The notes beneath the pieces were generated by a model that did no database searches, was not told where the DNA came from, and saw nothing but the letters and a program-made list of their open reading frames with translations. The translations under genes were made by a program, and so were the position numbers. From contig CALSCO010002036.1 in the NCBI GenBank assembly GCA_943704415.1, positions 1 through 32,452 on the forward strand: 32,452 nucleotides of DNA. The letters run 5' to 3'. This document shows positions 47 through 24,785 of the stretch, in pieces (within the stretch, counting starts at the first letter, position 1; each line of letters begins with the position of its first letter). The DNA comes from Parvularia atlantis. Its lineage: Eukaryota > Opisthokonta > Rotosphaerida.

Positions 47-3000
47 TCAGCGCGAGCCCGAGCCGGGCGGGACGTGGTGGTGGTGGTGCGGGTGCGGGTG
101 CGGGTGGTGCAGCGACGCGTGGCCTTCGGTCGAGTGCAGGAACTCGTGCGACTGCAGCGCGAGCGCCGTCGCGCGCTGCACGGGGTCGATCGCGAAGCAG
201 CTCTGCGTCGCGCCCGCGTCAGGCCGCACGTCCGCGCAGGCGCGCATGGGGCTCGCGGCGCACCTCCATGAAAAGCCGAAGCCCGTCAGAGTAGCGCATC
301 GGCGACGGCGGCGGCAGCGGCGGCGTCACGCGCTGGCCCACCTTGAACATGATCTGCACCGGGTCCATGCCGTGCCACGGCGCCTTGCCCACGACCATCT
401 CCCAGACGCAGCACCCGAGCGCCCAGATGTCGGCGGCCTCGGTCGACTTTTGCCCGAGGATGACCTCGGGGCACATGTAGTTGGGTGTCCCGCGCAGATC
501 CTCGTGCGGCTTGCGCGGGCGCGACGTGTTCTCGAGGTTGGTCATCTGCCGCGCGTCGTGTGAGCAGCAGCGAGCAGCGAGGTCGGCGCCACGGTGCGCG
601 GTTGCCACGCACGCTCTTCATCACGGCGCTGCCAAAGTCCGCCAGCTTGAGCCGGCCCATTGAGTCGATCAGGATGTTGTCGGGCTTGACGTCGCAGTGC
701 ACGACGCGCGCGTTGTGCAGATACACGAGGCCCTCCACGATTTGGTGCGTGTAGGCCTGCACGATGCTCTCCTTGTCGATCGGCCCGTCGCGGCGCAGCA
801 CCGACGCGAGCGAGCCCTCGGAGCAGTACTGTACAGCGCGCGTCAGCCAAAGAACAAGCACAACGCCGCCACACTGACCTCCATGAACAGCGCGACCTCC
901 TTGCGCTGCACCTCCATGCCCATGTAGCGGATGATGTGGTCATGCTTGAGCGTCTCGAGCAGGCGCATCTCCTCGCCGACCGACTGCAGCACCTCTGCCG
1001 CGCGTATGTGAGCGACGCTGCGCGCACGATGCAGCAGAATTGCGCACACCCTCGTCCGTCGACGATGCGCTCAGACGGATCAGCTTGACGGCCATCAGCT
1101 CGCCCGTGTCCAGGTTGATCGCCTTGTACACCTGGCCGTACGTGCCCGACCCGAGCGACGCTTTCTGGCGTGCGCGCGTGTGCGTCAGCGATGCATCAGG
1201 CACGGCTGATGAGCGCACGCGTGCGCGCGCACGCACCCGTTCCCAGCGGATGCGCGACTTGCCGAACGACGCCGCGAGCGTGTGCACGTGCTGCGGCACG
1301 TCGTCGCGCGACAGCACCTTTCCAACGACCTTTCCCTGCCGTGCGAGCGTCAGCCGGGAGCACGTGCTGAGGATGTGCGCCGTCGCACCTCGACCTGCGC
1401 AAGCTGCACCTTCTGGTCCAGATCGACGAGCTGCGAGCGCGCACGCGCACGAGCGAGTCAGTGCCTGGGCTTGCACCCGCCAGCGCGGGCAGCACCTTCA
1501 AGCGCCGCCGCTCCGACGCCGACACCTGCGCCGCCGGCTCGGGGTTGCGGTCGGTGAACGAGTCGTACCTGCGTGCACAATGCTCAGTGCACAGCGCAGA
1601 CGCGGCACACAAAGGTACGCACGCTTTGGTCGAGAAGGTCAGCTCGTCGATTATGCACTCGGCGCAGCCCTCCATTGACATCTTCTCGAAGACCTTGATG
1701 AGCACGTCAAACAACCTGCGCGCCGCCGTCGCGTTCAGTCGCAGTGGCCATGCATGGGCGCCGCACTTGTTGAACTCTGCCGGGTCCTGTTGCAGGATGG
1801 CCTCCTTGACGAGATCGAGCTCGGTGAAGTGCAGCACTGCGCACCGCGCTCAGCCGCCGCTCGGTGGCACCGCACGCGCGGCCGGCACGCACCGCGCGTC
1901 GCCCAGCGCTGCGACTGGCACGCAAAGTTGTACGCGTTCTTGTCGGTCGCCATGAGCGTCTCCATGACGAAGACGACCCACTTCTGCAGGAACACAAACA
2001 GCTTGCGTTGCTGCGGCGCGACGTGAGCACAAACGGCACGCGCCCGCCGCTGCCACCCACCAGCGTCTTGCGCGTCGGGCCGCGCACGAAGCGCATGACG
2101 TCAAGCGAGAATGTGCCCGCAAAGTCCGAGAAGCGCTGCACGAGCGTCGCAATCTCGCCAAAGACGATCCTGCGGCGGCGGGCGAGTGAGTGCGCAGCCC
2201 GTGGTATCGTGTGGTGCCGGGCACGCACGGGTAGCTCAGCGAGTCGGGTCCCGGCGTGGACGTGACCGACAGCGACGTGGACGACATCGACGTCGGTGTG
2301 GGCGACGCCGACATGGGCAGCGAGGTGCTGGACGGCGTGCGCGTCGCCTGCCGGTCCGGCACACGCTCAGAGGCCACGCGAGGCGTGCGGCTCGCCGGGG
2401 GAAACGCACGGGCAGCGAGCCGGTCGTGGGCAGGGTCGTGGGGAGCGGTGTGCTGGCCATGGACGACATTGACCGCAGGCTTGGGCGCGTGGAGATCGCA
2501 AAGTACGTCGACACGGTCGTTGGGATCGGCCCCGAGGACGACGACGACGGTGTGCCTAAGCGCAGGTCGATCGACGGCGTGCGCTCGCTGCGAAGCACGG
2601 GTACTGTCAGCGCCGGCGGTTGCGGGCAGCGCCACGCACAGCGGCGTCTGCGGTAGCGGTCGCGAGTGCAGCTCGTTCGCCTGGTCGATGAGGACCGTCG
2701 CGAGGGCCACCGCGGCCTTTTTCACCGCGAGTAAGTGGCTGTTGACCGACGGCGCATGCGCTGTGCACGAAGCCCGCCCGTGAGGACCGCGCACCGGCCA
2801 GACCTGTGTCGCAGCGCACCGTAGGTCTCGTCCGACGGCGGCACGAGCGAGTCCATGATGCGCAGGAAGCGCTTTTTGGCTTTGACGAGGCCGTGCGACG
2901 TGGGCGCGATGAGGCTGCATCACGGCGGCATTAGAACGGCAAGGCCGCAGCACTGCGCGCGCACCGGATCGAGTCGAGGCCAAGCAGCGGGCTCGGCGAC

Positions 3001-6000
3001 CCATTCAGCTCCGCCGCAACCGCCTCGGACACCTCGGTGATGCGCCCGTTCCACTGCCAGCGCTGCTGGTTCGGCGCGAGCACGACGTAGTAGTCCTCGC
3101 CCTCGTGGTGGTTGCCGTCCTCCTGCCGCGGCCGGCTAGGTGTCAGTGCACTGGCAGGGCGAAAAACAGGAGGCGTCACGGACCAACTCCTCTGTCGAGT
3201 ACGACATGACGACGCGAAACACGCTGAGCACCTTGTCTGGCTCACCGTGCAGGTCGTCCGCCACGAAGATACGCAGGCCCTTCTCCGTCAGCACCTGCGC
3301 GGGCCACTGGTCAGGCTCATAATGCACGCGCGCACTACAAGGCAGTATGTACCGGCTCACGGTCCAGCTGGCGCACGACGAGCGAGTGGCGCGTCGCGCT
3401 CATCTTCTGCCACAGCGCCGCGGCATCTTCCGTGTGAAAGTCGATCGAGTTCTGCGCGAGCAGTCAGGTCACAGCCCGTGTCGAGCACGGCGGCGCGCAC
3501 CTCAAGCTGGCTGCCCAGCTTCTTGAGGAAGCGCAAGATGCGCCGCGAGCGCCAGCGGAACGTCTCGAGAAGCTTGATGATGGCCTTCATCGTGTCGCGC
3601 GGCTGCGCCTCCAGCTCTGCCGTGGCCCCGGGTGAGCGCACGCGTCACAATACACGATCTGCCGCCGAAGAGAGCGCACGTTTGTACTCGAGCTTCTTGC
3701 CCGACTCCTCCAGATCCTTCGTCATGCGGTTGAACATGCTCTCGCAGAGCTTGCAGAAGCCCACGGCCGCCGCGACCTCGCCGCCGCGGATGCGCGGGGA
3801 GATGGCGCTGACAAAGCTCCACTCCTCCTCAAGAAAGTCGCCTGGCGGGCAGCGTGCGGTCAGCGGGTGCCACCAAGCCGCCGGGCAAGCAGACGCGCAC
3901 CAATCGAGAACGAGCTGGTCGTCGAGCCGCTCTGCCACTTGAGGTGCAGCAGCTTGAAGTAGACGTCCATCGTGCGCACGATCTCGTCGCCGAGCGGGTC
4001 CTGCGCACGCGTGAGCTGCAGCAGGTGGCACGCACAGGACGGGCCGCACGCACGGTTGTGACCGGCTGCCGCAGGTTGAGCGTGCGGATGAGGTCCACGC
4101 CGTATTTCTGGTGCGCGCGCGTCGAGACGTAGAGCGACTCGTGGATGTCGCGGACCATCTCGGTCGCGTCCGTGAGCGACACCTGCGCGCGTGCGCACGG
4201 TCAGAGGACATGCGCGACGGCAGCGCGGCGTCGTGCCTTGGTCAGATGCTGCCGCTTGTCGTTCTTGATGCGCAGGTACTCGCTGATGATGGACGCGCCG
4301 ACGGTGCTGAGCTGCATCAGCTGGTGCGGCGGATGCAGGGTCAGCGGGCATGGGCGGTGCGGCCAGTGGCTCGCGCGCACAGTGTCGTCCAGCGGCGGCA
4401 GATTGTGCTGCACAAAGGCGGTGATGACGTGCGGGTCCGTCAGGCACGCGTGGCCCAGCTGCCGCGGCCACAGCGTGTGAGGCGCACAGAGCCGCCGCCG
4501 TGCGCGCAAGCGCGCACCTCGAGGATGAGCCCGAGTGACTTGAACCGGCGCTGCTGGAACACGACGAGGATGGAGACGTTGCGCAGCTCGCGCATGAGGA
4601 ACTCGGCGATCGACGCGGTGCTGAACACGTCAGGGGCCGACGTGGCGCTGCGCACGCGAGCGCGCGGCGTGCGTTAACAGGCTGGTCCGCAGTGTGTGCA
4701 GCAGCAGCAGACGCACATCCATTTGGCCACGCTCGCGAGCTGGTCGGTGACCATGTTGTAGATCGTGTGCCACGTGCGCAGCGTGTTGAGCTTGCTAAAG
4801 ACGGCGTCGTACAGCTGCGCCTTGCTCTGCGCGCAAGATGTCGTGCCTCAGCAGCGGCTGCGAGCGCCACCACCGACGCCAGCGCACCTCGCGGAACCGC
4901 CGGTGCGTGGGGAAGCACTCGTCCAGGTCGTCCGCGAGCTTGAGCACCTCGGCGATCAACTCGGCCACCTTGGCGATCGGCGCGCCCTGCTGCACCTTGA
5001 ACGCGAGGATGCTGCCCATGACTGGCGGGTGTCTTGTCAGTCGCGCGTGCAGAGCATCAAAGCCACGTACTCCCGTCGGCGCGCTGGCGCTCGGCATGGA
5101 TCGCGTCCTGCTCCTCCGACAACGAGCGCTCGTTCAGCGTTGCGCGCAACTCGGCCCAGAGCGCGTCGTTGTCGAGCCGGCGCTGCTCGGAACCCTCGCT
5201 GGCACTGAGCCGGAGCCTGCGATGGCGAGCGTGGCGTGTCACCGGCGGCTATACGCCACGCACACCGCTGCGCACCGCTGCTTGCTGGCGCCGCGCTGGA
5301 GCGACAACTCGAGCGCCTGGAGCGCGGTGTGGAAGCGCTCGAGCTGGTGCACGGGCGACTCGACGATGGCCTGGGACTGCACGGGCGCCTGGTGCGGCGT
5401 GAACGAGGTGCCGTGCGTGCCGTGCAGCGGCGATGCGCGCACGTACCAGCGTCGGCGTGTTGAAGGGCGTGACTGTCCGGTTGATCGAGGTCGGTGCGAG
5501 CGTGATGCGCGTGGGCAGGTTGACGTCGTGGCCGTCGACAAAGTGCGCCAGCTCGTCCTCGGACACGTTGGGCAGGCGCACAGCACGATCGCGACCTGGC
5601 CGAGGCGAGTGGGGCCGTGAGCGAGCGTGCACAGCGACAGAGCGAGCGGAAAAAGCACACACCCCGCGCAAGCGTCTTCTTTTTCTGGTGCTGCTTGCGC
5701 GCGGTGGGCGGTGTCGACGCTGTGCCAGCTGCGCGCGTGGGGCTGCGCATGGAGCCGTCGCTGCTGCGCGAGCGCGACATGGGCGGGGGCGGGCTGAGCA
5801 GCTGGGACCCTGTCGACATTCGCGTGCGTGCTTCGTCAGCGGCCGATCAGCTCACGACGAACGCGCGGGGGGGGGGGGGGGGGGGGGGGGACGCACGCTC
5901 GAGCGAGTGCGTCAAGGTCTCGTCAGTGCCGGTGCGGCGCCCAATCAGCGCGCCCGAGAAGCTGACGCTGGTGGGGCTGGCGCGCGACGACGACGTGGGC

Positions 6001-6988: not shown

Positions 6989-8603
6989 ATGGAGCAGCGG
7001 CGGGTCGAGGCGCTGCACGCGGCGCTGCGCGCGGGCGACGACGACGCCGTGGCGCGGGCGCTGGAGCGGGACGGGGACGCGGCGGACGTGCGCGCGGTGC
7101 TGTCGGGCGAGGTGTGTGTGTGTGCTGGTGCGACGTGGAAGGCGACGCGTGACAAAGCGTGCAAGGGCGTGCTCGCGGTGCACGTCGCGGCGACGCACGG
7201 GCGCACGCAGTGGCTCGCGCGGCTCATGCCGGTGCGACGGCGCGTGCGGGTGTCGTGTCCATGGCCGGGCTCACGCGCAGGCAGCAGGACGACGTCAACG
7301 CGCGCGCGAGCACGGCCTCGGTCTACGCTGGGTGCACAGCGCTGCACTTTGCCTGCGACAATAAGCGGCTCGACGCGGCGCGGCTGCTGCTGGCGCTGCC
7401 GTCTGTGCGCCGCGCGCTTTCATTCGCCGTGTCGCATGTCGCTGACGACGGGCGCGACGCACAGCTCGACCGGTGCCCCGTCGACGTCAGCGGCCGCACG
7501 CCGTTCCACTTGGCCGCGTTCAAGGGCGACAGCGCGCTCGTGCGGCTGCTGCACGAGCACGGCGCGCACACGGACCTCGAGGACGACCAGGTGCCCCGCG
7601 CGCACGCCGTGCGGGATCACGTGTGGCTGAGTGCAGCGCACAGGGACGCACGCCGCTCATGCTCGCGGCCAGCCAGGGCCACAGCGGCGTCGTGCGCTAC
7701 CTGCTCGCGCACGACCTGAGCGAGATCAACGCGGTCGACCGCGAGCTCAACAGCGCGCTGCACCACGCCGTGCAGGTCCAGTGCCAGACCGTGTTCAACT
7801 ACGGCTACCCGCTGCTGCACGGCCACCACCAGTGCGCGCTGCTCCTCGTCGGCCACGGCATCGACGTCGGCTTGCGCAACGGTCACGGCGACCACGCGCT
7901 CGACGTCGTCGACGAGGCCATGGCCGACTTTCTCGACGGTGCGGCTCGCCCTTGCTCGACCACCGCGCGGCTGATCTGCTCGCACGCGGGCAACAGCCGT
8001 CGCCCGCGATCGCGAGCGCCTCAAGAGCCTCCCGACGCTGGCCGAGCTGCTCGAGCAGCACAGCGAGGCGGACCTGGCCGAGTACGGCCTGGGCGCGGAC
8101 GAGACGCGTGAGCTTGCGCGGCTGCTGGGCGTGTACCGCGACTACCTTGACCGCGAGGACGCGCGCGACAAGCAGCGCGGCGGTTGCCCGTTCGTCCTTG
8201 GCGAGGGCCTGCCCTACATCCGCAAGTTCCGCGCGCTGCGCGACGGTGACTCCCAACCGCGCGAGACCGGCTACCTCACGCTCGAGGATGAGGCGGCCAA
8301 GCGCATGCTCGGCAACGGCAACGGCGCCGGCGACGGCCTCAGGTGCCCGATGGGCTTCGAGGGGTGCGTTGTCACTGCGTCCGTGTCTGCTGCGTGTCGC
8401 TGAATGCGCGCGCCCACAGCCCGAGGCCCGCGAACCACGCCGCCCTCAAGGTCGACCCTGCCGCGACGCCTGTGGCCGTGCCGGCCGCGACCGAGGCGCC
8501 GCCGACCGTGCTCGCGCTGTCGCGCCACAACGCGCCATCACTATTGCTACTCGGCGCGGCCGCGGCTGTGCTCGTGGCCTGGGGCGTGCCGCGGCTGACG
8601 TGA
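6989..8603 (+). CDS. Ankyrin-repeat protein with C-terminal membrane anchor
   Basis: The start at 6989 gives MEQRRVEALHAALRAGDDDA, a typical opening ankyrin helix pair. Introns were followed at about 7111, 7231, 7592, 7940 and 8353. The exons then give successive ankyrin repeats, including GCTALHFACDNKRLDAARLL, GRTPFHLAAFKGDSALVRLL, GRTPLMLAASQGHSGVVRYL and NSALHHAVQ. A charged helical segment of about 100 residues follows, then GGCPFVLGEGLPYIRKF and LRCPMGFEG, two Cys-Pro motifs about 60 residues apart. The protein ends with one hydrophobic helix, SLLLLGAAAAVLVAW, and only a few residues after it. That is the layout of a tail-anchored protein facing the cytosol (inference). The partner bound by the repeats is unknown. 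The stop lies 24 bp from the stop of the convergent amidohydrolase gene. Confidence 0.82.
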
Positions 8604-8627: not shown

Positions 8628-9553
8628 TCAAGCGCGAAGGAGCTCGCAGCCGGAGCCGTCGCAGAAGACGGTCTCGCCGCCAAAGACGGTCGCGAGCACA
8701 GCAGTCGTGCGCAGCTCCGACGGCGGCACAGCGTACGGGTCGCGGTCGATCAGGATAAAGTCGGCGAGCTTGCCCGCGGCGATCGAGCCGAGCTCGCGCT
8801 CTTGGAACGCCGCGTAGGCCGCGTCGAGCGTGAAGCCGCGGATCGCCTGGGCCACGGTCACGGCCTCGGACGGGTAGAAGCCGCCCGGCGGCTGGTTGTT
8901 GGCGTCCTGGCGCGTCACGGCGGCGTGGATGCCCAGGAACGGGTTGACGCGCTCGACGGGGAAGTCGGAGCCCATGGGAACGCGCAACCCGGCCTCGAAG
9001 AACGTGCGCCAGACGTACGCACCGGCCATGCGCTCCTCGCCAATGCGGTCGACCACGAAGCCCTTGTCCGACGTGCAGTGCGTCGGCTGCACCGACGGCA
9101 GGATGCCGAGCGGGGCCAGACGCAGCATGTCCTGAGGCGCGAAGATCTGCGCGTGCTCGATCCGCAGCCGCAGGTCCTGCTCGAGCCCCGCCGCGCGCCA
9201 CACGCGCTCGAAGATGTCGATCGTGAGCCGGTTGGCGCGGTCGCCGATCGCGTGCGTGTTGACCTGGTAGCCCGCGGCGACCCACTTGGCTGTCGCCACC
9301 GCGAGCTCGTCTGGCGGCAGCAGCAGCAGGCCCGACGTCGACGGGTCGTCTACCAACTCGCGTCAGCCACACAACTCACGGGCACGGGACCAGCACCGCA
9401 CCCGAGTACGGCTCAAGCATCGCCGCGCCCCACGACCCCAGCGCGCCGTCCAGCTGAAACTTGACGGCGCGCACGGTGAGCTGGTCGCGGCCGTAGCCGA
9501 TCACGATCGGGCTGTCCTCCGGGCAGAAGTAAACGCCGTTGGCGCACTGCGGC

Positions 9554-11134: not shown

Positions 11135-13186
11135 ATGCAGGCGCAGGGCACGCACACGCTCGCGGCGCTCGTGCTGCTCGCGGCGGTCGCCACGTGCGTG
11201 CGCGCACGCATCACGGTGCTCGGCGGGCCGCGCGACGGGCTCGAGATCGCGCACGCCGACGCGTTCCGCACGAGCGTCCCCGACTACGACGTCACAGGCA
11301 CACGCCGCGCGGGCCGGTTGCCGCTAAAAACGTGCTAAACGCGGCGGCGGCGCACAGGCTTCGTTGTGCCGTACACGCTCACGGGCGGCTGCCTGATCGA
11401 CGGTGCGCGCGCTTCGGTCCAGCACGCTCCCTCAGTCACGCGGCCGCATCGCAGACGGCCAGCCACTCGGCGTCAGCCCAAACATCAGCTTCATCGTCCT
11501 CGACGACGCGTTCCGCGCCGGGTGCCAGTCGATCGCCGACATCGTCGTGAACAATGCCGCGAGCGTGAACGCGAGCCTGTGGGGTGCGCGCGCTCTCACG
11601 CCTCGCTCACGATCCGCTGAGCGCGCACCACAGTCTTCACCCAGGGCGCATTCTACCAGGCCGTCCCGGGCGGGCTGCGCGACCCCGTGGGCGACCGCAC
11701 GCGCTACATGTACATGGGTGCGGCGCGCGTGCTGTGCGGCTGGGCGGCGCTGACGACGCACACTCGCAGGCCTCGCGATCACGCTGCTCTACCCGGGCCA
11801 GGCGCAGAGTGACTTTGTAGCGCTCGTGCAGAACGGCACACTGCGCATCCACGCCGTGGCCGGTGCGCGCGGTGACCGCCTGGGCGCGCTCTCAGTGCTG
11901 ATGCAGGCGTGGCGCACCCAGACCCCGGGCCGTACGCGGCCTCGCTCGCCTCGCCGCTGTACGTGGGCGGGCGCATCGTGGCGTTCATCCTCTTTGTGCG
12001 TGTGGCCTGCTCAATTGCGAACGCGCTCGCTCATGTGCCCGCGTGCACATGCGCCAGGGCCTGCTCGCGCTGTACTGCTGGACCGCGATCGGCATCGTGC
12101 TCGTCCGGCGCTGGCGCAAGTTTGCGCTCAACACATCCAACCAGCTGTTCATCCTCGTCGGCCTCTTTGCGACGCGTGCGTTCGCGCGCCTTTCCCCGCT
12201 TGCGCTGCGCCGCGCGTGACGGCACGCACACGCCCCTCCACACAGTGCGCTTCATCGAGGCCATCGACTACCAGGGCCTGCTGTTCCTGCTCGGCAGCGG
12301 CGGGCAGGCGGCCGTGCTGTGGATCGCGTACATATTTGCGCTCTGGGCCCTGCTCGAGCTGCTGCACGGGTGGACGACGGCGCTGGTCAAGTCGCGCGAC
12401 CTGCCGCAGTGGCTGCTGACGGCGTATCGGGCATTTGCGGTGGTCACGGGCGTCGTGATCGTGCTCGCGTGCGTCTCGGTCGTCATCTACTCGAGCGAGA
12501 AGTCGTTCAACGCGGTGGCGCGGATGCACCGCGTCATGTACTACATCGTCGGCGCGTGCCTGGGCGTGATCGGCGTGGTGTACGTCGTGGCAGGTTCGTG
12601 GCTGCTGGCGATTCTGGGGCGAACGGGCGTGACGGACGCGAAGACGGTGATCATGAAGAAGGTGCGCCTGCCGTGCCTGCCCGCCGTACTGCGCCGGACG
12701 CTGACGACGTTCGCGCGCGCCGCTGCAGATCACGGTGCTCATGGTCGTAGCGGGTGCGCCGTGGCTGCGTGTGCGCATGCTCGCACTGACCCGTCGGCGC
12801 GGCGCGCAGCCGTCTCGCTGCTCGTGCTGCTCATCGTCGTCGTCGCCAACATATTCGCAACGCTCACGCCCGAGAACCAGCTCGCCGTGGCCCTGCTCAA
12901 CACGCTCGTTATCGCCAGCTTTGCCGCGGCGATGCTCGCGTCGCTCCGCTTCGACTTTTACGAGCGCAGCACCTCGACCGAGGCCTCGGGCGGTTCCGCG
13001 TCCAAGACGAGCCAGACGGGCGCGGCGCGGCTCGTGTCGCGGGGCGCGCGCAAGGGCAGCACGGCAGCAGGCGGCGGCGACGACGACGGCGACATCTCGC
13101 TTGGCTCGCTCAGCCCGACCGCGGCCGAGCTGCTGCAGCACAGCGCGTCGGCGTCCTCCGTGGCGCGCAGCGACGTCACGCAGTGA
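11135..13186 (+). CDS. Seven-TM protein with signal peptide and possible PA-like ectodomain, paralogue 1
   Basis: I do not recognise a named family. The start at 11135 gives a signal peptide (THTLAALVLLAAVATCVRA) followed by an ectodomain of about 190 residues. Its landmarks are TGGCLIDDG, ISFIVLDDAF, IADIVVNNAASVNAS, VPGGLRDPVGD and LAITLLYPGQAQSDF. The pattern of a strand, a Gly-Cys turn, VVNNAA and a later ITLLYPG...L...NGT resembles a protease-associated (PA) fold, but this is inference. Seven hydrophobic helices follow, among them IVAFILFGLLALYCW, AVLWIAYIFALWALLELL, AFAVVTGVVIVLACVSVV, YYIVGACLGVIGVVYVVAG and VSLLVLLIVVVANIFATL. A Ser/Gly/Asp-rich cytosolic tail of about 85 residues ends it. 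This is the layout of a receptor. Nine introns were followed; the first appears to be GC-AG (near 11296). The next gene downstream is its paralogue. Confidence 0.8.
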
Positions 13187-13421
13187 ACAGCTCCGTGTGT
13201 GTCCAATCGGGACTTTTCCCCGTTTTTTTTTTTTTGTTGCCGCATCTGGCTGTTGTGCGGAACGCGCCCCTTGCCGCCCTAGCCTTCCCCGCGCCTGCGC
13301 GCCCCCCGCGCCACCCGATAGCGCCCCACGCGCCGCTCGCCGCGCACGCCGTGCTGACACGTGCGCGCGCCGCGCGGCCCGCAGCCTGAGCGTCAAGCTG
13401 TCAGATTCGAGTTACACGACC
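13187..13421. other. Intergenic spacer between the two 7TM paralogues
   Basis: 235 bp holding the 3' end of the first gene and the promoter of the second. A run of 13 T at 13223-13235 is the most AT-rich element here, and C-rich sequence follows. No gene is seen. Confidence 0.5.
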
Positions 13422-15535
13422 ATGCGCGCGCCAATCCTCACCGCCGCGCACGTCGCCCTCTTCGCGGCCGCGGCGCTGCTGCCAGCCGCCCGCGCGACGC
13501 TCACGGTGCTGTCGGGTGCGGGCGCGGGCACGGCCGTGCGCAACGGCGACCCGCGCGAGCTCGCGGTCACCTACGCCGTTTCGGGTGTGTCTCGCCCTTG
13601 TTTCGGTTCGTCTCAACGCGGCTGACGGCTGCCCGGCGACCAAGGCCGCCTCGTGCCCGTCGAGCTCGTCGGCGGCTGCGTCCTCGCCGGTGCGCCACCG
13701 TGTGTGACCTCGCGCGCGCATCGGCTCACGGCAGCGCGCAGATGACGCGCCGCGCGCGCTTGGGCCGGACCTCGCGTTCATCGTGCTCGACGAAGCGCTC
13801 GGCGCGGGCGGGTGCGAGGCGATCGAGGACATCGTGCTCAACAACGCCGCGGCGCTGGGCGCGAGCGCGTACGGTGCGCGCGCGCGACGCCCGCGTCCGA
13901 TCGCCCTGCGCTGAACTGGCACGGCGCGGGTCCAGTCTTCACGCAGGCGACGTTGTTCGGCTCGATCCCGGGCGGCTACTACGACCCCGTCGGCAACCCC
14001 GCGACGTACCGCGACCTCGGTACGCGCACACGCGCATCCCCCTCGTCGGGCCCACACCGCGGCAGGGCTCGCCATCACCATCGTGTACCTCGGTCCGGCC
14101 GACAAGGACCTGCTCGAGCAGCTCGTGACGGACGCAACCGCCGCGAGCCAGTACCTCAACGTCACTGTCGCCTCATGTACATGCCCGCGCGCACACGCAC
14201 GGTAGCAGCGGTGCTGACGCGCACGCCCGCAGACGCCGGCGACTACCCCGCGTTCGCGCAAACGCAACTTGTTCTAGCCGGGCGGATCATCGCTTACATC
14301 GTCTTTGTGCGCCGCGGCTGCGGGACCGTGTGCGGGCTAACGCGTGTGCGCGTGCCCAGTGCTCGATCGACCTATACTGCGTCGTCGTGCTCGCGCTCGT
14401 GCTCGTGCGCCACGGCCGCGCGTTCCCGCTCAACACGTCCACGTTCATCCTCATCTGCATGGTCGTCTTTGCCAGCCGTGCGTGCGGCACGACCCCACCG
14501 GCACCGTGCACGCCTGAGCGCACACGCGTGCCCGCACAGTCAATGTGGCTGCCTCGGTGAACTATGCAGGCTTGTTCCAGATCCTGCCGCCGGGCATGCA
14601 CGCGGCGCTCTCGTACATCAGCTTCATCTTTGGCCTGGCGGCGCTGCTCGAGCTGCTGCACGCGTGGACGAGCGTGCTTGTGCGCGCGCGCAACCTGCCG
14701 ACGTACCTGCTCCTGGCGTACCGCATCTTCGCCGTCGTCATGATGATCGTCACCATCGTCGCGCTCGCCTTCACGGCGGCGACGGTGATTGAGCGACGCG
14801 TCAACGGGGTCCTGCGCGCGCAGATAATCACCTTTCCGCTCATGGGTGCCTTCGTCTTCGTGCTCGTCGTCGTGTTCTTCCTGGCGGGTGTGAGCCTGCT
14901 GATCCTGCTCCGGCGCGTGCAGCTGGCCGCGGACGCAGCCAAGACGGCGATGATCCGCAAGGTGCGTTTGCACGACCTCGCGCACGGCGCCTCATGCCTA
15001 ACCCGCCGCGACGCGCAGATCACGGTGCTCATCATCATCGCCAGTGCGTTGCGAGCGCTCGCGCACGATGCGGCCGGGACTGACGGGGAGCGCACGCGCG
15101 CTGCGGCAGCGGCTGCGATGATCATCATCCTCTCGCAGATCATCCTCATCAGCCAGCGAAAGATCTCCAACCTCACCGCGGGCATCCAGCAGCTGATCGT
15201 GCAGACGATCTTCATCGGCACGCTCGCGGCCGCGATCCTGACGTCGCTGCGTTTCCGCCTGTTTGAGCGCACGGGCAGCAGTGCGGTGCAGGGCAGCTAC
15301 TCGGAGACGGCGCAGACGGTGGCGCTCGGCAGCAGCGACCTGGTCAAGCGCGACGGGTCGCGGGCGGCCAGCCCCGGTGCGACCCGGTCGGGCCATCTGA
15401 CCGGTGCGGTGCTCACGTTCTGCTGTTGTGCGGCGCAAAACTGAGCAACTCGTCGTCGGCGCAGACGATCTTATCATGCAGACCATTGCCGACCTGTCGT
15501 ACCGCCAGCCGGATGCCGACGCGATCGAGCAGTGA
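13422..15535 (+). CDS. Seven-TM protein with signal peptide and possible PA-like ectodomain, paralogue 2
   Basis: A tandem copy of the preceding gene with matching exon order. The start at 13422 gives the signal peptide ILTAAHVALFAAAALLPAARA. The ectodomain follows with LVPVELVGGCVLADDAP, LAFIVLDEAL, IEDIVLNNAAALGAS, IPGGYYDPVGN and LAITIVYLGPADKDL. Seven helices follow, including IIAYIVFCSIDLYCVVVLAL, STFILICMVVF, ISFIFGLAALLELLHAW, IFAVVMMIVTIVALAFTA and FVFVLVVVFFLAGVSLLIL. The shared spine with paralogue 1 includes LLELLH.WT..LV..R.LP and ITVL after helix 5. A last intron near 15404 joins a short tail ending QPDADAIEQ; without that splice the frame would stop at 15444. The copies have clearly diverged, so the duplication is not recent. 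Ligand and partner are unknown. Confidence 0.8.
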
Positions 15536-15924
15536 CCGCCGCTTGTGCTTGACCTTTTCACATGCAATAACTGTTAATGCCATCATCTTGAAGTCAGCTG
15601 AGCCGGAGCTTGAGGCTCGTCGGCAATCCAAGCGTGAGCAGAGAGACTTTTATTGAGAGGTCTGTCAACTTGAACCTTGATTCTCGCCGGCGAGCTAAGG
15701 ATCAGCTTCAGCCGGCCAGCCCACACGCTGACTCGGACCAGCCAGCCAGCCAGCCAGCCAGCCCACACGCTGACTCGGACCAGCCAGCCAGCCAGCCCAC
15801 ACGCTGACTCGGACCAGCCAGCCAGCCAGCCAGCCAGCCAACTTGACGGTGAAACCAACCTGAGCGCCATCAGCCCCGTGGCGCATTACCCGGGTAAGAT
15901 CACAACGACAACAACGTCCGCCGC
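15536..15924. other. Intergenic region before the Kelch-kinase gene
   Basis: 389 bp with a lower GC share than the genes around it. The first 170 bp hold AT-richer sequence that probably covers the 3' end of the second 7TM gene. The rest is mostly the minisatellite described separately, then about 80 bp leading to the ATG at 15925. I see no coding signal; open frames across the repeat are low-complexity. Confidence 0.5.
15712..15842. repeat. Compound minisatellite, CAGC runs alternating with a 21-bp unit
   Basis: Three copies of CCCACACGCTGACTCGGACC start at about 15720, 15762 and 15796. They are separated by runs of the tetramer CAGC and end in a longer CAGC run. The spacings (42 and 34 bp) differ by two tetramers, so the array has changed length by slippage. 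The unit CACACGCTGAC...CCAG looks like the branch point and acceptor of introns in this genome. Confidence 0.9.
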
Positions 15925-18900
15925 ATGAGCGCGCCGCTCGCGTGGACGCCGCTGGCCGGCGCGGCGCGCTGGGCACGGCGCAAGCTGCACACGGTCGTGC
16001 TGCACGGCGAGCACCTGTACGTCTTCGGCGGCGTCGACGTCGCGTCGGGCGCGGTGCTCGACGGCCTCGTCAAGCTGCGCGCGGCCGACGGCGAGCCGCT
16101 GTGCGTCGCCTCCCTATCAAACGGCGCGTCTGCTCACCACGCACGCGCGCGCGCACGGGCAGCGAGATGCCCACGACCGGCCCGGGGCCCGGTCCACGCC
16201 ACTCGCACGTCGCCGCGGTCGTGGACGGGACGATGTACGTGCACGGCGGCGTGGCCGCGTCCGGGCGCGTATGCCAGGACGTCCACGCGCTGCGGCTCGG
16301 TGCGTCACATGTGGCGCCCCTCCGGCCCGCTTAGTTATGGCCTGCGTGACAGCGACCGGCGAGTGGACGCGCGTCGCGACACGTGGCGCCGAGACGCCCG
16401 CGCGCTACGGCCACAGCGTCGCCGCGCATCATCGGTGCCGTCGTCGCTGCATCGGCCATCGCGGGTCTGGCCCTCCCACTGACGCGCGCGCAGATCCCTC
16501 GTCGTCTTTGGCGGCAGCGACGGCCGTGAGGTCTTCGCGACCGTCTTTGTGCTCGCGCTCGACACGGGCGTCTGGGAGCGCGTGCGGCTGGGCGGTGCGC
16601 GCAGTCGATCGACGCGATGGACTGTGAGAGGCTCACGCGGGCCGCATCAACGCAGGCGCCGACGTGCAGCCCTCGCCGCGGCTGTACCACTGCTCCGTGC
16701 AGCTCAGCGGCTCGTTCTACGTGCACGGCGGCACGCCCAAGGTCGCACTCGACGGTGCGCCGCGCTGCCATCCCAATGCGCAGCCGCTAACGCGATCGCA
16801 ATCGCGATGCACACAGGCCAGCTGTCGCACCTGAGCGACTGCAGCGAGTTCCAGCTCGAGACGCGCGAGTGGCGCCCCGTCGAGGTGCGCGGCACTGCGC
16901 CGTCCCGCTGCGGCCACTCGGCCGTCGTCTTCCAGGACACGATGGTGCGGTGCCTGGCAACCGCCCGCCCCGCGCGCGCGCCTCACGCCCTTGGCCGCGG
17001 CGCAGGTCGTCGTCGGCGGGCACTGGGGTGAGATGGCCGAGCCGCGGCCGATGCACCTGTTCAACTTTGTCACGGGTGAGTGGTCGATGGCGCAGGCCGC
17101 GCCCGTCGACATCTACACGCGGTGCGCACACCGGCCCACTGCCGCCCCACGCACTGCTCATGGTCGCGCACGTGCGCGAGCAGACGCTTCCAGGCCGCCG
17201 TGCTCGTCAACTCGGCGCTCATCGTCATCGGCGGCGAGTCCGCCAACTCGCGCGAGACCTTCGACGGCAGCAGGTGCACCTTCGCACGCGAGCCAGGCTC
17301 ACCGCTCACGCGCGTCGGGGTGCGCAGTCTGTGCCTCAAGGTCAAGCTGTCGGCCATGCGCGGCACGTCGCACCCGGCCACGCACACTGACAGCGTGTTC
17401 CAGCCCGAGGACAGGTGCGCAAAAAACACCCTGTGTTGTGCCGCCCTGACGGTCCCGGACATAGCGACCTGTCGCCGCCGATGTCGCTCCGCGCAGCGAG
17501 CGGCACCGCCCTGGCCGCGCCCAACAGCGCCGGCAGTCTGCGCAACGGCAGCGGCAACTCGCCCACGTACCGCAGCCCGCCGCCGCCGCAGCAGCAGCAA
17601 CAACAGCAGCAGGTGTTCCCGCACGGGCGCAGCGCCAGCGGGGCGAGCCTGGCGTCGATGGATCGGCCGCACGCGGCGTCGACATCTGGGCCCGAGGCTG
17701 CCGACGCGGCCGGCGGCACGGTGCGCGCACACTTTATGTGAGTGCGTGCTGATCGCGCATCCATGCGCCAGCTGAGGATAAAGTGCGATGTGGGCGAGGA
17801 GATGCGCCTGCTATGCCTGCCGCGGCACGTGACGTACGACCGGCTCGTGACGGCTATCTGCCGCGAGCTGTCGCTGCGGCAGGACACGCTGAGCCTGCAC
17901 TACGTCGTGCGTGCTGCTCTGGCGCACGTGCGCACCCGTGTTGACACGCTGCGCAGGACGAGGAGGGCGACCGCATCGTCGTGCGCTCGCAGGTGAGCGC
18001 ATTAGCTAGCGCGTGCCGCCGGCTCTCTGACGCGTGGTGCGGCACATCAGGCCGACCTGGACGAGGCCATCCTGCAGGCCGACCAGACGTCCGCGAGCAC
18101 CACGGGTCTGGTCCAGCTGGGAGGCGATGACGGGTCCACGCTGGACGCCCTGCCGCAGGGTGCGCGGCGCGAATGCCGAGTCGCGTGGCTCACACAGACA
18201 CACGTGCGACCAGGCAAGACGGTCACGATCAAGCTCATGCTCACCAACCGCAACGGCGGGCCGCTCGACCGCCAGCCGCTCAGCCGGCAGAACAGCGTCG
18301 GGCACAGCAACGGCAACGGCGCGGTCAACGGCAACGGTGTCAACGGCAGCAAGACCTGGGGCTGGGCGGGCGGGCCGCACCCCATGCGCGCCATGAGCAC
18401 GGGCCCGGGCGTGGCCATCTCGAACGGCGCATCGCCCGTCAGCCCGATCATGTGCGTGACTGCCGCCGCGGGGACGTTGCTGACACTGGCTCCCCTTTCG
18501 CAGACGCAGGAAGTACGCCACCACGGCGACGCGTGGCAAGTCTGAGCACCTGTCGCTGCTCGGCCGCCGGCCCGTCTTCCGAGGTGCGCGCATGTGCAAG
18601 GCCGCGCATCGCTCGCACACCGGCCTGACCGCGCCCGCGCGCCAGACCTGTCCGTGATCAAGGAGGGCCCCGAGATCGGCCGCGGGCCGCACTCGTCTGT
18701 GCACCTCGCGCTCGACCCGCTCACGGGCTACTTCCTGGCCGTGAAGGACGTGCGGCCGCTGGGCGGGGTCAACGCGCGGCTGGTGCGCGTGCAGCGCGCT
18801 CACAACGTGCAACTGACGTCTGCGCGTACGAAAGGCTGCGGCGCTGCGTGAGCACTCGGCCAAGCTCAACTCTTTCGAGCAGCACGACCACCTCGTCCAG

Positions 18901-19783
18901 TACCACGGTGAGCACGCAGCAAGCACGCTCTGCCGGTGCTGCCTGCTGACACGCCCGCGCGCACAGGCTTCGTGTTTGACAGCGATCACGTCAAGCTCTT
19001 TGTCGAGTACATCTCGGGTGGGTCCATCCGCGACCTGCTGGGCAAGTTTGGCACGCTGTCCGAGGCCGTGGCGAAGCTGTACACGCGGCAGATCCTCATG
19101 GGCCTCGACGAGCTGCACTCGCGCCAGATCGCGCACGGCGGTGCGTGCACAGCGCCCAGACTGCCCTTCAGCGCGGCTGACCGGCCGTTGCTTCCCCTTC
19201 AGCGCTCAAGACGAGCAACGTCCTGCTCGACTCGAACGGCGTGATCAAGCTGTCGGACTTTTTCTTTGCGCGCGCGCTCAACGGTGCGTGGCATACGCGG
19301 ACTGCGGACGCTCCGCTTAGGCGCAGCGCTGCTCTAGGCGACCAGCTCGAGACCATGCTCGAGCCGTCCGTGGAAGCGCAGATGCGCGTGTGCAAGGAGG
19401 ACATCTACCGCCTCGGCTGCGTCTTGCTCGAGATGCTCTCGGGCCTGCCGTTGTCAGGCAGCTCGTCGTCGCTGAGCTTGATGGGTGCACGGGTCTGTGC
19501 ACGGGCGGCGCGCTGGTGTGCTCGTTGGCTGAAGTCGCCGTTGCTGCGCAGGCACCGCTCATCCCCGAGTCGGTGTCACCAGACGCGTCCGACTTTTTGC
19601 TGCAGTGCTTCAACAAGTGCGGGCGCTGGCCGGTCGTGACGCTGCTCACGCTGCGCTCTCAGGGACGTCGACGCGCGCCCGACCGCTGCCGTCCTGCTCG
19701 AGCACTCGTACCTACAAGTGCGGGCGCGCTCGCGCTCGCTCGTTCGCACCTCGCGCACGTTCTCCAGTCCCAAGACCGGCTAG
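15925..19783 (+). CDS. Kelch repeat-PB1-STE-type pseudokinase protein (about 21 introns)
   Basis: About 21 introns were followed, nearly all with good phase. Residues 1-400 form six or seven Kelch blades: LYVFGGVD, HSHVAAVVDGTMYVHGGVA, RSLVVFGGSDG, GSFYVHGGTPK, CGHSAVVFQD, VVVGGHWGE, ALIVIGGES. A Ser/Gly/Pro linker with a poly-Gln run (17589-17612) follows. A PB1 domain then starts near 17772 with LRIKCDVGEEMRLLCLP and ends with VDEEGDRIVVRSQADLDEAI, so both the basic strand and the acidic OPCA motif are present. After a low-complexity linker comes a MEKK-like kinase fold: IGRGPHSSVHLAL, YFLAVKDV, KLFVEYISGGSIRDLLGKFG, KEDIYRLGCVLLEMLSG. The catalytic loop reads IAHGALKTSNVLLD (Asp of HRD is Ala) and DFG reads DFF, with a short activation segment lacking APE. 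It is probably inactive and acts as a scaffold. The stop at 19783 assumes the last GTGCGG is not spliced. Confidence 0.82.
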
Positions 19784-19879: not shown

Positions 19880-22800
19880 TCAGCCGCGCGGCACAAAGCC
19901 CAGTCGCCACGTACGCGTCTCGATCGGCCCGAGCGTCGTCGCGTCGCTCTCCTCGCGCGCAAACGGCACCGGTCCGAGGCTCAGTCCGCGCTCCTCGGCG
20001 GTCGCCAGCTGCAGCTCGGGCGCCCACAGGGCCGCGAGGTCGACGTCGACGGGCGCGCCGAGGTCGCCAGGCGCGGCCTGCGTCGCAGTCAGCATGCACT
20101 GAGGGCCCGGCGCACGGCGCGCACCCGTTCAAACATGTGCTCGAGTCGGAGGATAATGTCGTGCGGCGCCGCAGCAGCGTCGCGCGCCTCAAACGACAGC
20201 AGGTGCAGCGCGGTCGGCAGGTCGCGCGCCAGGCCCTGCATGTAGCGCCGCGGGCCGGCTGCGAGCCACGCAGCGCTGTCGGTCGGCGTGAGCACGGACG
20301 GCGCGTGGTCCCAGAGCAGAGCGGCGCGTCGGCGGAGCGTCAGGTCTGCCGCGGCCGTGCTCGTCGTGTTGTCCAACAGGAGCAGCAGGTCCGCCTGGAA
20401 CGGCGCCTGCTCGTCCATCGCCTCGTCCATGCCAAGGCCGTCGTCCTGCACGTCACACATGTGTCAGACCCGCAAGATCGCCCACCCCACAGACGACGCA
20501 CCTGCATGAGGCGCCGCTGCAGCATGATTTCGAGCTCGCCGACCGCGAGCGACGCGGTGCCGTGCGGCTCGGCGGCGACGAGCACCAGCGCGCGCCGCTG
20601 CGACGCGCTCGCGGCGTCCTCGATGGCCGCGGTCGTCAGCAGCGGCCGGTAGTTGGACGCGATGCGGTCGGCCCACGAGCCGTCAAAGTCATGCCGGATC
20701 ATCTCAAACAGGCCGTTATCGGTCCACAGGCGCGCCTGCGTGTGGGCGTCAGCCGCGTGTGGCCGTGCGCAGGAGGCATCGCGCACGTTGTTGTTCTCGA
20801 CGTCGGTCGTGAGGCGCAGGATGAGTTCCTTGTTCTCGCTGATCGGGTCTTCGCTCGACACGCGGACCGCCAGGCCGTACTGCTGCACGTTGGCGGCGTT
20901 GCCCGACGGGCTCGAGTAGACGGTCGCGCTCAGCCGCAGGTCGCCTGCGCCCTCGGCAAACACCTGTTCGACCGCCTCGTACAGCGGGCCGCGCACGACG
21001 ACCGTCTCAGTGGGGCACGGGCGCACGAGCGGCTCAGCCGGACCGCTGGCAACATGTCAGTCTCAGCACGCTTCGCGCGCACGCTTCCGCACCTCGGCGT
21101 GAATAGGTACGCGCCCGACTCGGTCGAAGAGTACTCGAGCAGGGCCATATCGAGCCGCACGTCCGAGCTGTACGCTGCGGGCTGCCAGCGCGTGGGCCGG
21201 CCCGTCGCGCCCGAGAACTCGAGCCGGTTGCGGCCCGCGCTCTCGATCGCAAAATCGACGCTGCCCACAGCGCCGCATGTGGGCACGCTGGCCACCAGCG
21301 CGACCACGGTCGACGGCACGGCCGCGCGCCGCAGGGCCAGCTCGACCGTGACGTAGCCCAGCGGCGGCACACAGCGCTCAAAGGCGACTTCAACGACCGG
21401 CGGCTCAGCCGACAGCGCGCGAACCTGTGCACGCGGGGTGTGAGCCGTGCTCGGCGACACACGCAGCGGCAAACGCAACCTGCGCGGGCTCGTTGTTCCC
21501 GACAGCGATGGCGCCCAGCTGATCCAGCGACGGCACCCGCACGCGCACCCGCTCGATCGCGCACGACGCAAAGCCGAGCGAGTTGAAGAACAGCAGAGGC
21601 ACGGGCTCGTCGATCGCCAGCAGGTCGACCACCGACGTCTCCTTGACCACGCGCAGACCGGCTGGGGCGTGTGGCGCGGTCAGCAAAAGCGTTGAGATGC
21701 TTGGGGCACAGCGGCGCGCACGCCAGGTGCCGTTCGCGCGGCTCGAGAAAGCAAGGCTGGCGACGGCCGCCTGCAGCACATCGTCGGCCTTGGCCTCGGC
21801 GGCGACGAGCTTCGCCAGGTAGTCGTCCACGACGACCTGCTTCGACGTGCCTGGCGGCAACAACGCCGTCAGTCGCACTCGCGCGCGCTCGGGGCCGCGC
21901 ACCCGTGGCCGCGTCGTGGTGGTTCATCAGCGCCGACGACTGCCGCGCGGCCGTCAGTTGGTCGCGCACGCCCTCGGCGTCCGTCAGCCGTGCACCTGTG
22001 CTGCACGTCAGCGGCGCCGCACGCAGCACGCAGCACGACATGCCTTCGGCACCGCGCAGCGCCACTGCCGCCTCGGCCGCACGCAGCGCGGCGTCCGTGC
22101 GGCGCATCTGCCGCTTGAGCTGCGGGCGCGACGTGAAGTGGCCAGCCCACCAGCCGCCGTCTGCGCCGGGATCGTCAGCCCTTGCGCCGTACCTGCACTG
22201 CAGCGCACATGGAATGTCCTCGAACGGGAGGTAGTCGGCGTCGTCGAGGCGCGGCCAGCCCTCGGCCGGCTCGGCAGCGCGCACCTAAATGGCTGCATCA
22301 GCAGTAGGGCATGCAGCGTGCGCCACCCGGCCGCACGCACCGCGTCAAAGTATTCTGTCAGCGTCGCGTACTTTATGTGCATGCCGTACGTGGCGTTGCG
22401 CTCGTTGATGTACGTCTTGAGCGCGTCGAGGTTGCTGAACATCGCCGCCGCGTCGTCAAACGCAAAGTCGTGCCCGAACGGGAACAGGAGATGGCCTGTT
22501 CGCGCGACGGCGTCAGCGATTTGCACGAAGTGCCAGCAGCCGCGCGCACCCGTGCGGAAGTACGCCGCGCGCTCGTTGATGGTGCGGACGAGGTCGCGCG
22601 CCAGCGAGCTGCGTGTACACGGTCAGACATAGTGCGCACCGGCACAGGCACGAATTTGCGCGGGCGCACGCGATGTTGGCGTCCGTGACCGGCGCGGCGC
22701 CCAGGTCCCAGTTCATGAAGCCGGGCACCCTGTGCGCGCGCCCATTGTTGAGCGCCGTACTTGCAGCGACGCGGGACTGCGCACCAGTACCACGAGTCGA

Positions 22801-23825: not shown

Positions 23826-24785
23826 ATGGCCGACGAGGCGCCGCCGAGCGACGACGACGACGGGCCGCAGCGCGAGCAGCGCGAGCTCGAGCGTGTGCTC
23901 GCGCGGCGCGCAGGCAAGGAGAAGGTCAAGTTGCCTCGCCGGGGCGAGAAGGGCTTCGCGCCGACGGGCGCGCAGGACGAGGAGGCCAAGCTGAAGGCGT
24001 CGCGCGAGCTCGTCCTGGCGGCGATGCGCGACGAGCGGCGGCCCTCGCTGTGCGCACGCGCATGCTTGCTGTGGGCCGTGCGTGCTGCACTGCTCACGCG
24101 TCACACGTGCGTGTAGGCGCGTGCTCTCGATCGCCGACTGGGACGCCGCGCGCAACATGGCCCGCGTGACGCAACCGCGCGGCAACGTGCTCATGACCAT
24201 GGGACGCGCGCACCGGATGCACCTGTACCTCCTGCCCGAGGAGACGGCATACCTGGTCGAGCGCGGCGTGCTGCAGCTGCTCGTCGACGGCGAGCCGGCG
24301 TCGCTGCAGCAGACGATGAGCGTGTGCTTCCGCGGCGGCTTTGCACTCGACAAATACGTCGTGCGTCGCCTGCCATCAGGCGCACCCAGCTTGCCGCTCA
24401 GACGTGCGCGCACATGTGTGCGTGGCAGGTGTACTGCTACTTCAGGCGCCTCGGCTACATCGTCACGCGCCACGGCCTGCCGTGGACGACGCTGCCGTCG
24501 CCCGAGGAGGCGGCGAGCGGCGTGCGCACCGCACCGCCACCCTCGCCTGCGCCAGACAACGACGATGACAACGATGGCAACGACGGCGCTGACGCCATGG
24601 ACGCAGCGCCAGCAGCACCGGCAACAGCTGCGCATGTACAGCCCGGCCGGCCCGCGTCGCTGCTGTCGTCCGCCATCGCACTGTTCACGCGCACGGCCGT
24701 CTCCGTCGGCGGCTGGATGCGCGACGTGCTTGTGCGACGGCCGACCGGCCAGCAGCAGCCTCCGATGCCCGCACAGCCACAGCCA

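Follow-up and report, generated by a model that had tools for sequence, protein, structure and literature searches.

A tandem pair of seven-helix proteins with predicted ectodomains in Parvularia atlantis and their probable kinship to THH1/TOM1/TOM3

Two Adjacent Genes Encode Seven-Helix Proteins

Contig CALSCO010002036.1 of the rotosphaerid Parvularia atlantis (assembly GCA_943704415.1), analyzed here over its entire 32,452 nucleotides (hereafter called the window), carries two adjacent genes, A and B, whose predicted products each consist of a signal peptide, an ectodomain, seven hydrophobic helices, and a cytosolic tail. There is very little doubt that both belong to a real family of seven-transmembrane (7TM) proteins, and a chance origin is excluded because five further contigs of this genome carry homologous genes.

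The two genes are arranged head to tail on the + strand with 235 nucleotides (nt) between them, and both were spliced by hand from the sequence letters. In the resulting models, gene A (11135..13186) encodes 507 amino acids (aa) in 10 exons, located at 11135-11297, 11358-11402, 11455-11583, 11634-11717, 11770-11862, 11922-11995, 12058-12175, 12246-12661, 12729-12753, and 12810-13186. Gene B (13422..15535) encodes 512 aa in 11 exons, located at 13422-13584, 13645-13689, 13742-13873, 13936-14019, 14066-14176, 14233-14306, 14360-14477, 14540-14961, 15019-15043, 15110-15403, and 15465-15535. The introns are short (nine of 50-70 nt in A, ten of 46-66 nt in B), and 18 of the 19 have GT-AG boundaries, including all of those in B. 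Intron 1 of A (11298-11357) is of the GC-AG type, and the donor of its counterpart in B is GT.

A preliminary description of this locus had noted a matching exon order in the two genes, and the models bear this out, in that the first nine exons correspond one to one in both length and phase. Their lengths in A and B are 163 and 163, 45 and 45, 129 and 132, 84 and 84, 93 and 111, 74 and 74, 118 and 118, 416 and 422, and 25 and 25 nt. Intron phase is identical at all nine shared boundaries, B has one additional intron in its tail, and the two proteins are 41% identical.

Signal peptides were predicted from an N-terminal hydrophobic segment (residues 4-22 in A, 5-23 in B) together with a signal-peptidase-like cleavage site recognized by eye, which places them at approximately residues 1-25 of both proteins (11135..11209 in A and 13422..13496 in B), as originally proposed. 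The ectodomain covers approximately residues 26-187 in A (11210..11970, with Cys 66 and Cys 93) and 26-194 in B (13497..14278, with Cys 66 and Cys 94). Its mature length is nearer 160-170 residues than the roughly 190 first reported, and the motifs quoted at that time (a GGC turn, FIVLD, DIVxNNAA, and LAIT.LYLG) are present.

The seven-helix region comprises residues 188-428 in A (11971..12963) and 195-438 in B (14279..15264). Within it, the transmembrane helices (TM1 to TM7) are assigned to residues 188-212, 224-242, 257-278, 296-317, 332-359, 375-398, and 407-428 of A, and to residues 195-219, 231-249, 264-285, 303-325, 339-366, 384-405, and 420-438 of B. The earlier claim of seven helices agrees with a hydropathy scan, which counts exactly seven above-threshold segments past residue 190 in each protein and finds a weak extra hydrophobic segment within the ectodomain (109-127 in A, 106-124 in B). 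The cytosolic tail of B (15265..15535) contains 23 Ser or Thr among its last 110 residues.

By the charge rule, the N terminus of both proteins lies outside and the tail is cytosolic. Intracellular loops 1-3 carry 4, 2, and 4 Lys plus Arg residues in A and 2, 2, and 5 in B, extracellular loop 1 carries none in either protein, and extracellular loop 3 carries none in A and two in B. Extracellular loop 2, with three such residues in both proteins, is at odds with this rule.

A seven-helix transporter or channel would be compatible with the hydropathy data taken by themselves, and insect gustatory-receptor-like channels likewise have seven helices. However, the insect-type 7TM channels are oppositely oriented, whereas the proteins studied here combine a predicted signal peptide with an N-out charge pattern. 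Furthermore, few charged residues occur within the helices in the alignment, and no transporter family was found in Pfam at E 10 save for single weak matches below the cut-off. A transporter or channel function is therefore highly improbable.

The Pair Belongs to a Family of Seven Genes

The genome (616 contigs, 16.25 Mb, in which the window is the contig labeled C480) was searched for further copies. Gene B as query yielded one additional gene, C, on contig C396, and C as query yielded others on contigs C5, C252, C44, and C6. The family thus comprises seven genes, A through G, of which the five outside the window (C-G) also span all seven helices, plus one truncated relic. The original notion of a tandem pair holds in that A and B are adjacent, but they are not a lone pair and most likely form a tandem within a small family specific to this lineage.

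When spliced, the relatives encode 530 aa (C), 602 aa (D), 559 aa (E), at least 463 aa (F, whose last exon is probably absent from our model), and 554 aa (G). A signal peptide and an ectodomain are present in all seven members. The alignment of the seven contains 13 invariant columns, which include two Cys residues of the ectodomain and a Trp in TM3, and the spacing between the two Cys is 25-29 residues in every member. The hydropathy scan applied to the relatives counts seven helices in F and six in C, D, E, and G, where TM2 falls below threshold, although the alignment reveals TM2 in all members. Intron patterns are of one type in A, B, and G and of another in C and F, with several positions common to both types, while D and E consist of just three exons each.

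The relic, found on contig C120 (L070, approximately 2900-3500, - strand), is related to D and E and joins an ectodomain to a TM4 stretch without helices 1-3. A tail motif, D-x-x-L-S/T-E-L/I, is common to C, D, and E (L009, 6146-6276, and the tails of L038 and L039), and ASPxTPSxHY lies farther along the tail in C and D. These motifs possibly mark a cytosolic binding or phosphorylation site. A candidate relative on contig C430 (E 0.033) was dropped because by eye it reads like a kinesin gene.

The Family Lies Outside the Searched Library Models

Pfam, scanned at E 10, gives nothing above cut-off for any of the seven members or for their consensus, and NCBIfam gives no matches, which accords with the initial impression that the core is unrecognized. 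Pfam matches below the cut-off to DUF2678, FAM165, SUa-2TM, SLC3A2_N, DVL, and DUF6185 were judged to be noise. Models for the cAMP receptor, GOST, GPR137 (which received no separate test), and other 7TM families in Pfam likewise found none of the seven members at E 10.

Searches of 5.8 billion proteins with B (7993 candidates scored) and with the seven-member alignment (7994 candidates) each returned none at E 10, but a relative is detected in these searches only if it has short exact words in common with the query, and absence of the family elsewhere is therefore not demonstrated. Among PDB sequences, B produced only noise, and the family profile produced a sole match, to a chimera of a G protein-coupled receptor (GPCR), with an E value of 0.024. 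Thus, single protist genomes continue to yield 7TM families that the library models do not cover.

The Helical Core Probably Is a Distant Relative of THH1/TOM1/TOM3

The genome search with gene C also matched contig C411 (E 0.0019), which carries a plain gene of the THH1/TOM1/TOM3 family (PF06454, E 4.9e-28). A second PF06454 piece (L043, C418:12089-12361, 27.8 bits) reaches a contig end. The protein from C411 was aligned with 11 relatives to give a set of 12 PF06454 rows, and this set as a query of PDB sequences matched nothing. The tests that used a 7TM-only profile, hidden Markov models (HMMs), or a joint alignment were based on 10 of these 12 rows, with the incomplete P0001 and P0011 dropped.

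A profile-profile comparison of the seven members with the 12 PF06454 proteins aligned TM3 through TM7 in register (E 2.2e-5, probability 76.5%). When restricted to the 7TM region, the comparison scored 33.5, versus 15.2 for the reversed profile, a mean of 18.7 for 100 block-permuted controls, and a best value of 24.8 for 100 permuted reversed controls. The family HMM scored the ten PF06454 proteins at 22.1 to -0.1 bits, and five of them scored higher than any of 200 local shuffles (maximum 12.8). In the opposite direction, the PF06454 HMM scored C at 17.2 and F at 6.1 bits, above the best control at 1.1 bits. Scored individually, each of the ten PF06454 proteins exceeded its own reversal, and a cAMP-receptor-like protein from P. 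atlantis itself scored 11.4.

Individual residues and an intron point in the same direction. In the joint alignment, the TM3 Trp is found in all 17 sequences (seven of the family and ten of PF06454), an Arg in TM2 in five of seven and ten of ten, and a Leu-Arg pair closing TM7 in six of seven and ten of ten. Moreover, the phase-1 intron within TM2 of gene A (12176-12245, feature 12175..12245, + strand) matches an intron of the PF06454 gene on C411 in both column and phase, and a phase-1 intron occupies this same column in A, B, C, F, and G. In an alignment of the family by itself, this intron is shifted by one column in B and G.

Several results weigh against this kinship. One of the 100 permuted controls in the 7TM-only comparison nearly ties the real score (33.4 versus 33.5), perhaps because the permuted blocks retain short motifs. 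With the PF06454 HMM, members A, B, D, E, and G score at or below the best control, and when the family HMM was applied to 958 other open reading frames (ORFs), an unrelated ORF (9.0) outscored the unspliced ORF from C411 (7.1). The genome search with C that led to C411 did not return A or B, and its ranking is therefore incomplete. The matching intron is one of three in the core of the C411 gene, to be compared with eight sites in the family core, which by our own reckoning gives a chance of about 0.03. Finally, PF06454 is listed at E 10 for none of the seven members nor for their consensus, and because none reaches its gathering score of 25 bits, we do not file the members under this family.

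One might regard these proteins as a 7TM class of their own, hitherto undescribed, with hydrophobic helices that came to resemble those of THH1/TOM1/TOM3 by convergence. The lack of Pfam matches, the two empty searches of 5.8 billion proteins, the near tie of a permuted control, and the similar scores of background ORFs would all fit with this explanation. However, convergence does not readily account for the shared helix order, the TM3 Trp, the Leu-Arg of TM7, the TM2 intron in common with the PF06454 gene of this genome, or the advantage of every PF06454 protein over its own reversal, and we judge this explanation to be rather improbable. Based on the helix-by-helix alignment, the TM3 Trp, the matching intron, and profile comparisons that exceed most controls, the helical core of A through G is probably a far relative of the plant THH1/TOM1/TOM3 proteins. 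Thus, the preliminary view that the core cannot be placed in a known class stands with regard to library matches, but is tempered by this probable distant kinship.

The Ectodomain Possibly Adopts a PA-Like Fold

The preliminary description also saw a hint of a PA-like fold in the ectodomain. This region presents the order GC, strand, Cys helix, strand, strand, and helix, which hhalign places in register with the PA domain (PF02225) over 95 columns. The PA profile used for this comparison combined eight bacterial plasmid-borne protease pieces with two PA domains from the P. atlantis genome, and a third piece from this genome (L046) was left out. The score of 19.4 does not exceed the best of the 60 permuted controls (20.4, with a mean of 12.8), and the reversed profile came close at 17.2. 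PF02225 found none of the seven members at E 10 and nothing with the ectodomain consensus, so that none reaches its gathering score of 23.9 bits. The hint thus endures as a correspondence in element order but not in score, and the family ectodomain is possibly PA-like.

A Possible Role in Signaling

If the core is THH1/TOM-like, then the family would represent a GPCR-like helix bundle with an ectodomain fused in front of it. In such an arrangement, the ectodomain, possibly PA-like, would meet a ligand outside the cell or within a vesicle lumen, the helix bundle would hand its state to heterotrimeric G proteins, and the Ser/Thr-containing tail might serve regulation. A model of one PF06454 relative (P0004) has a GPCR fold with likeness to solved class A and taste 2 GPCRs, and the genome contains G-alpha genes on two contigs and RGS genes (12 of 16 places above cut-off). 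A signaling receptor fits with these data because the core is conserved while the ectodomains diverge among the seven paralogues, the nearest family has a predicted GPCR-like fold, and G-alpha and RGS genes are present. The genome also carries a cAMP-receptor-like 7TM gene (L080, C117:20046-20477, PF05462, E 7.1e-8) and, on contig C331, another, weaker place of this kind (L081).

Other data argue against a GPCR-like receptor. A model of B from TM2 to the tail, built from window positions 14542-15402 with two introns read through, on an alignment that also included exon 8 of A together with nine PF06454 proteins, is poor (predicted local distance difference test score 58.9, predicted template modeling score 0.36), and its 12 structure matches are meaningless (best E 2.9). 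The class A motifs E/DRY and CWxP are absent from all seven members, and NPxxY is absent from their cores, the two matches (in B and D) being in the ectodomain, so any switch would have to use other residues. In addition, we know of no proof that THH1/TOM1/TOM3 proteins are G protein-coupled receptors.

The main rival to a signaling receptor is an endomembrane scaffold or sorting protein similar to THH1/TOM1/TOM3, located at the vacuole or lysosome, whose lumenal PA-like domain would bind cargo and whose cytosolic face would recruit small GTPases. TOM1 and TOM3 reside on the tonoplast and bind ARL8, and PA domains bind cargo in vacuolar sorting receptors. The probable THH1/TOM-like nature of the core is consistent with such a role, as is the finding that a PDB relative of one PA domain from this genome is a vacuolar sorting receptor. 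GPR137 is likewise described as lysosomal in PMC12716839. However, the PA assignment of the ectodomain is not established, and seven paralogues with diverging ectodomains would suggest sensing more than housekeeping sorting. For these reasons, we consider an endomembrane function unlikely, though it is the strongest competitor to signaling.

Judging from architecture, the most likely reading, at about even odds, is that A and B are divergent THH1/TOM-like receptors to which a sensing domain has been fused, and that they act in signaling through G proteins. The full proposal is more doubtful, namely that they constitute an undescribed eukaryotic receptor class in which a PA-like sensing domain is joined to a GPCR-fold core. 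Under this proposal, the core would have diverged early on from the THH1/TOM1/TOM3 stem, and the class would have grown to seven paralogues within a single protist lineage and would use G-protein signaling. If it were true, the ancestral 7TM stem of plants and protists would have gained ectodomains independently of what happened in the animal GPCR classes. The 7TM stem formed by THH1/TOM1/TOM3-like proteins is old and poorly understood, and it is disputed whether these proteins are receptors. Having a branch in which several paralogues carry a secreted ectodomain would make it easier to ask what such cores sense and whether they are coupled to G proteins.

Neighboring Genes in the Window

The neighbors of A and B appear ordinary by their Pfam matches. 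Upstream are pieces of a protein kinase (610-828, -), an ankyrin domain (7656-7937, +), and an amidohydrolase 3 (8640-9350, -). A short minisatellite (15709-15840), whose 34-42 bp units end in CCAG runs, begins 170 bp downstream of B, and beyond it are pieces of a kelch domain (15904-16128, +), a protein kinase (18966-19133, +), a glycosyl hydrolase 38 (20520-22610, -, with its N and C parts both under cut-off), a Sen54 tRNA endonuclease subunit (24121-24363, +), and a proteasome/cyclosome repeat (27555-27860, -).

Comparison with Known 7TM and PA Proteins

In the literature searched, no title or abstract describes a 7TM core bearing a PA ectodomain or any ectodomain attached to a THH1/TOM1/TOM3 core. 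One parallel is provided by the Remi-sans-famille (RSF) receptors, known from choanoflagellates and other protists. PMC12716839 describes them as orphan 7TM proteins whose structures link them weakly to THH1/TOM1/TOM3, with no domain beyond the 7TM region and with an NxLQxxMNxL motif between TM6 and TM7. This motif, even in relaxed form, occurs in none of the seven members. RSF receptors and the present family are both orphan 7TM proteins with a tentative link to THH1/TOM1/TOM3, but RSF receptors are devoid of an ectodomain. Class A GPCRs differ from the family in carrying E/DRY, CWxP, and NPxxY in their cores. The PA domain corresponds to the family ectodomain in its order of elements, and the pair of Cys residues retained in all seven members is a further point of likeness, whereas the lack of a Pfam match and a profile score not above the controls set the family apart.

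The THH1/TOM1/TOM3 proteins have seven helices in the same order as those of the A-G family. A GGRL sequence in TM5 is invariant among the 12 PF06454 proteins and has a full counterpart only in C (GGRI) and a partial one in F (GGWL), whereas in the alignment neither it nor the basic KLxEVG stretch that follows is kept in A, B, D, E, and G. Another distinction lies ahead of TM1, where the family has a signal peptide and an ectodomain of 160-170 residues that the PF06454 proteins examined do not have.

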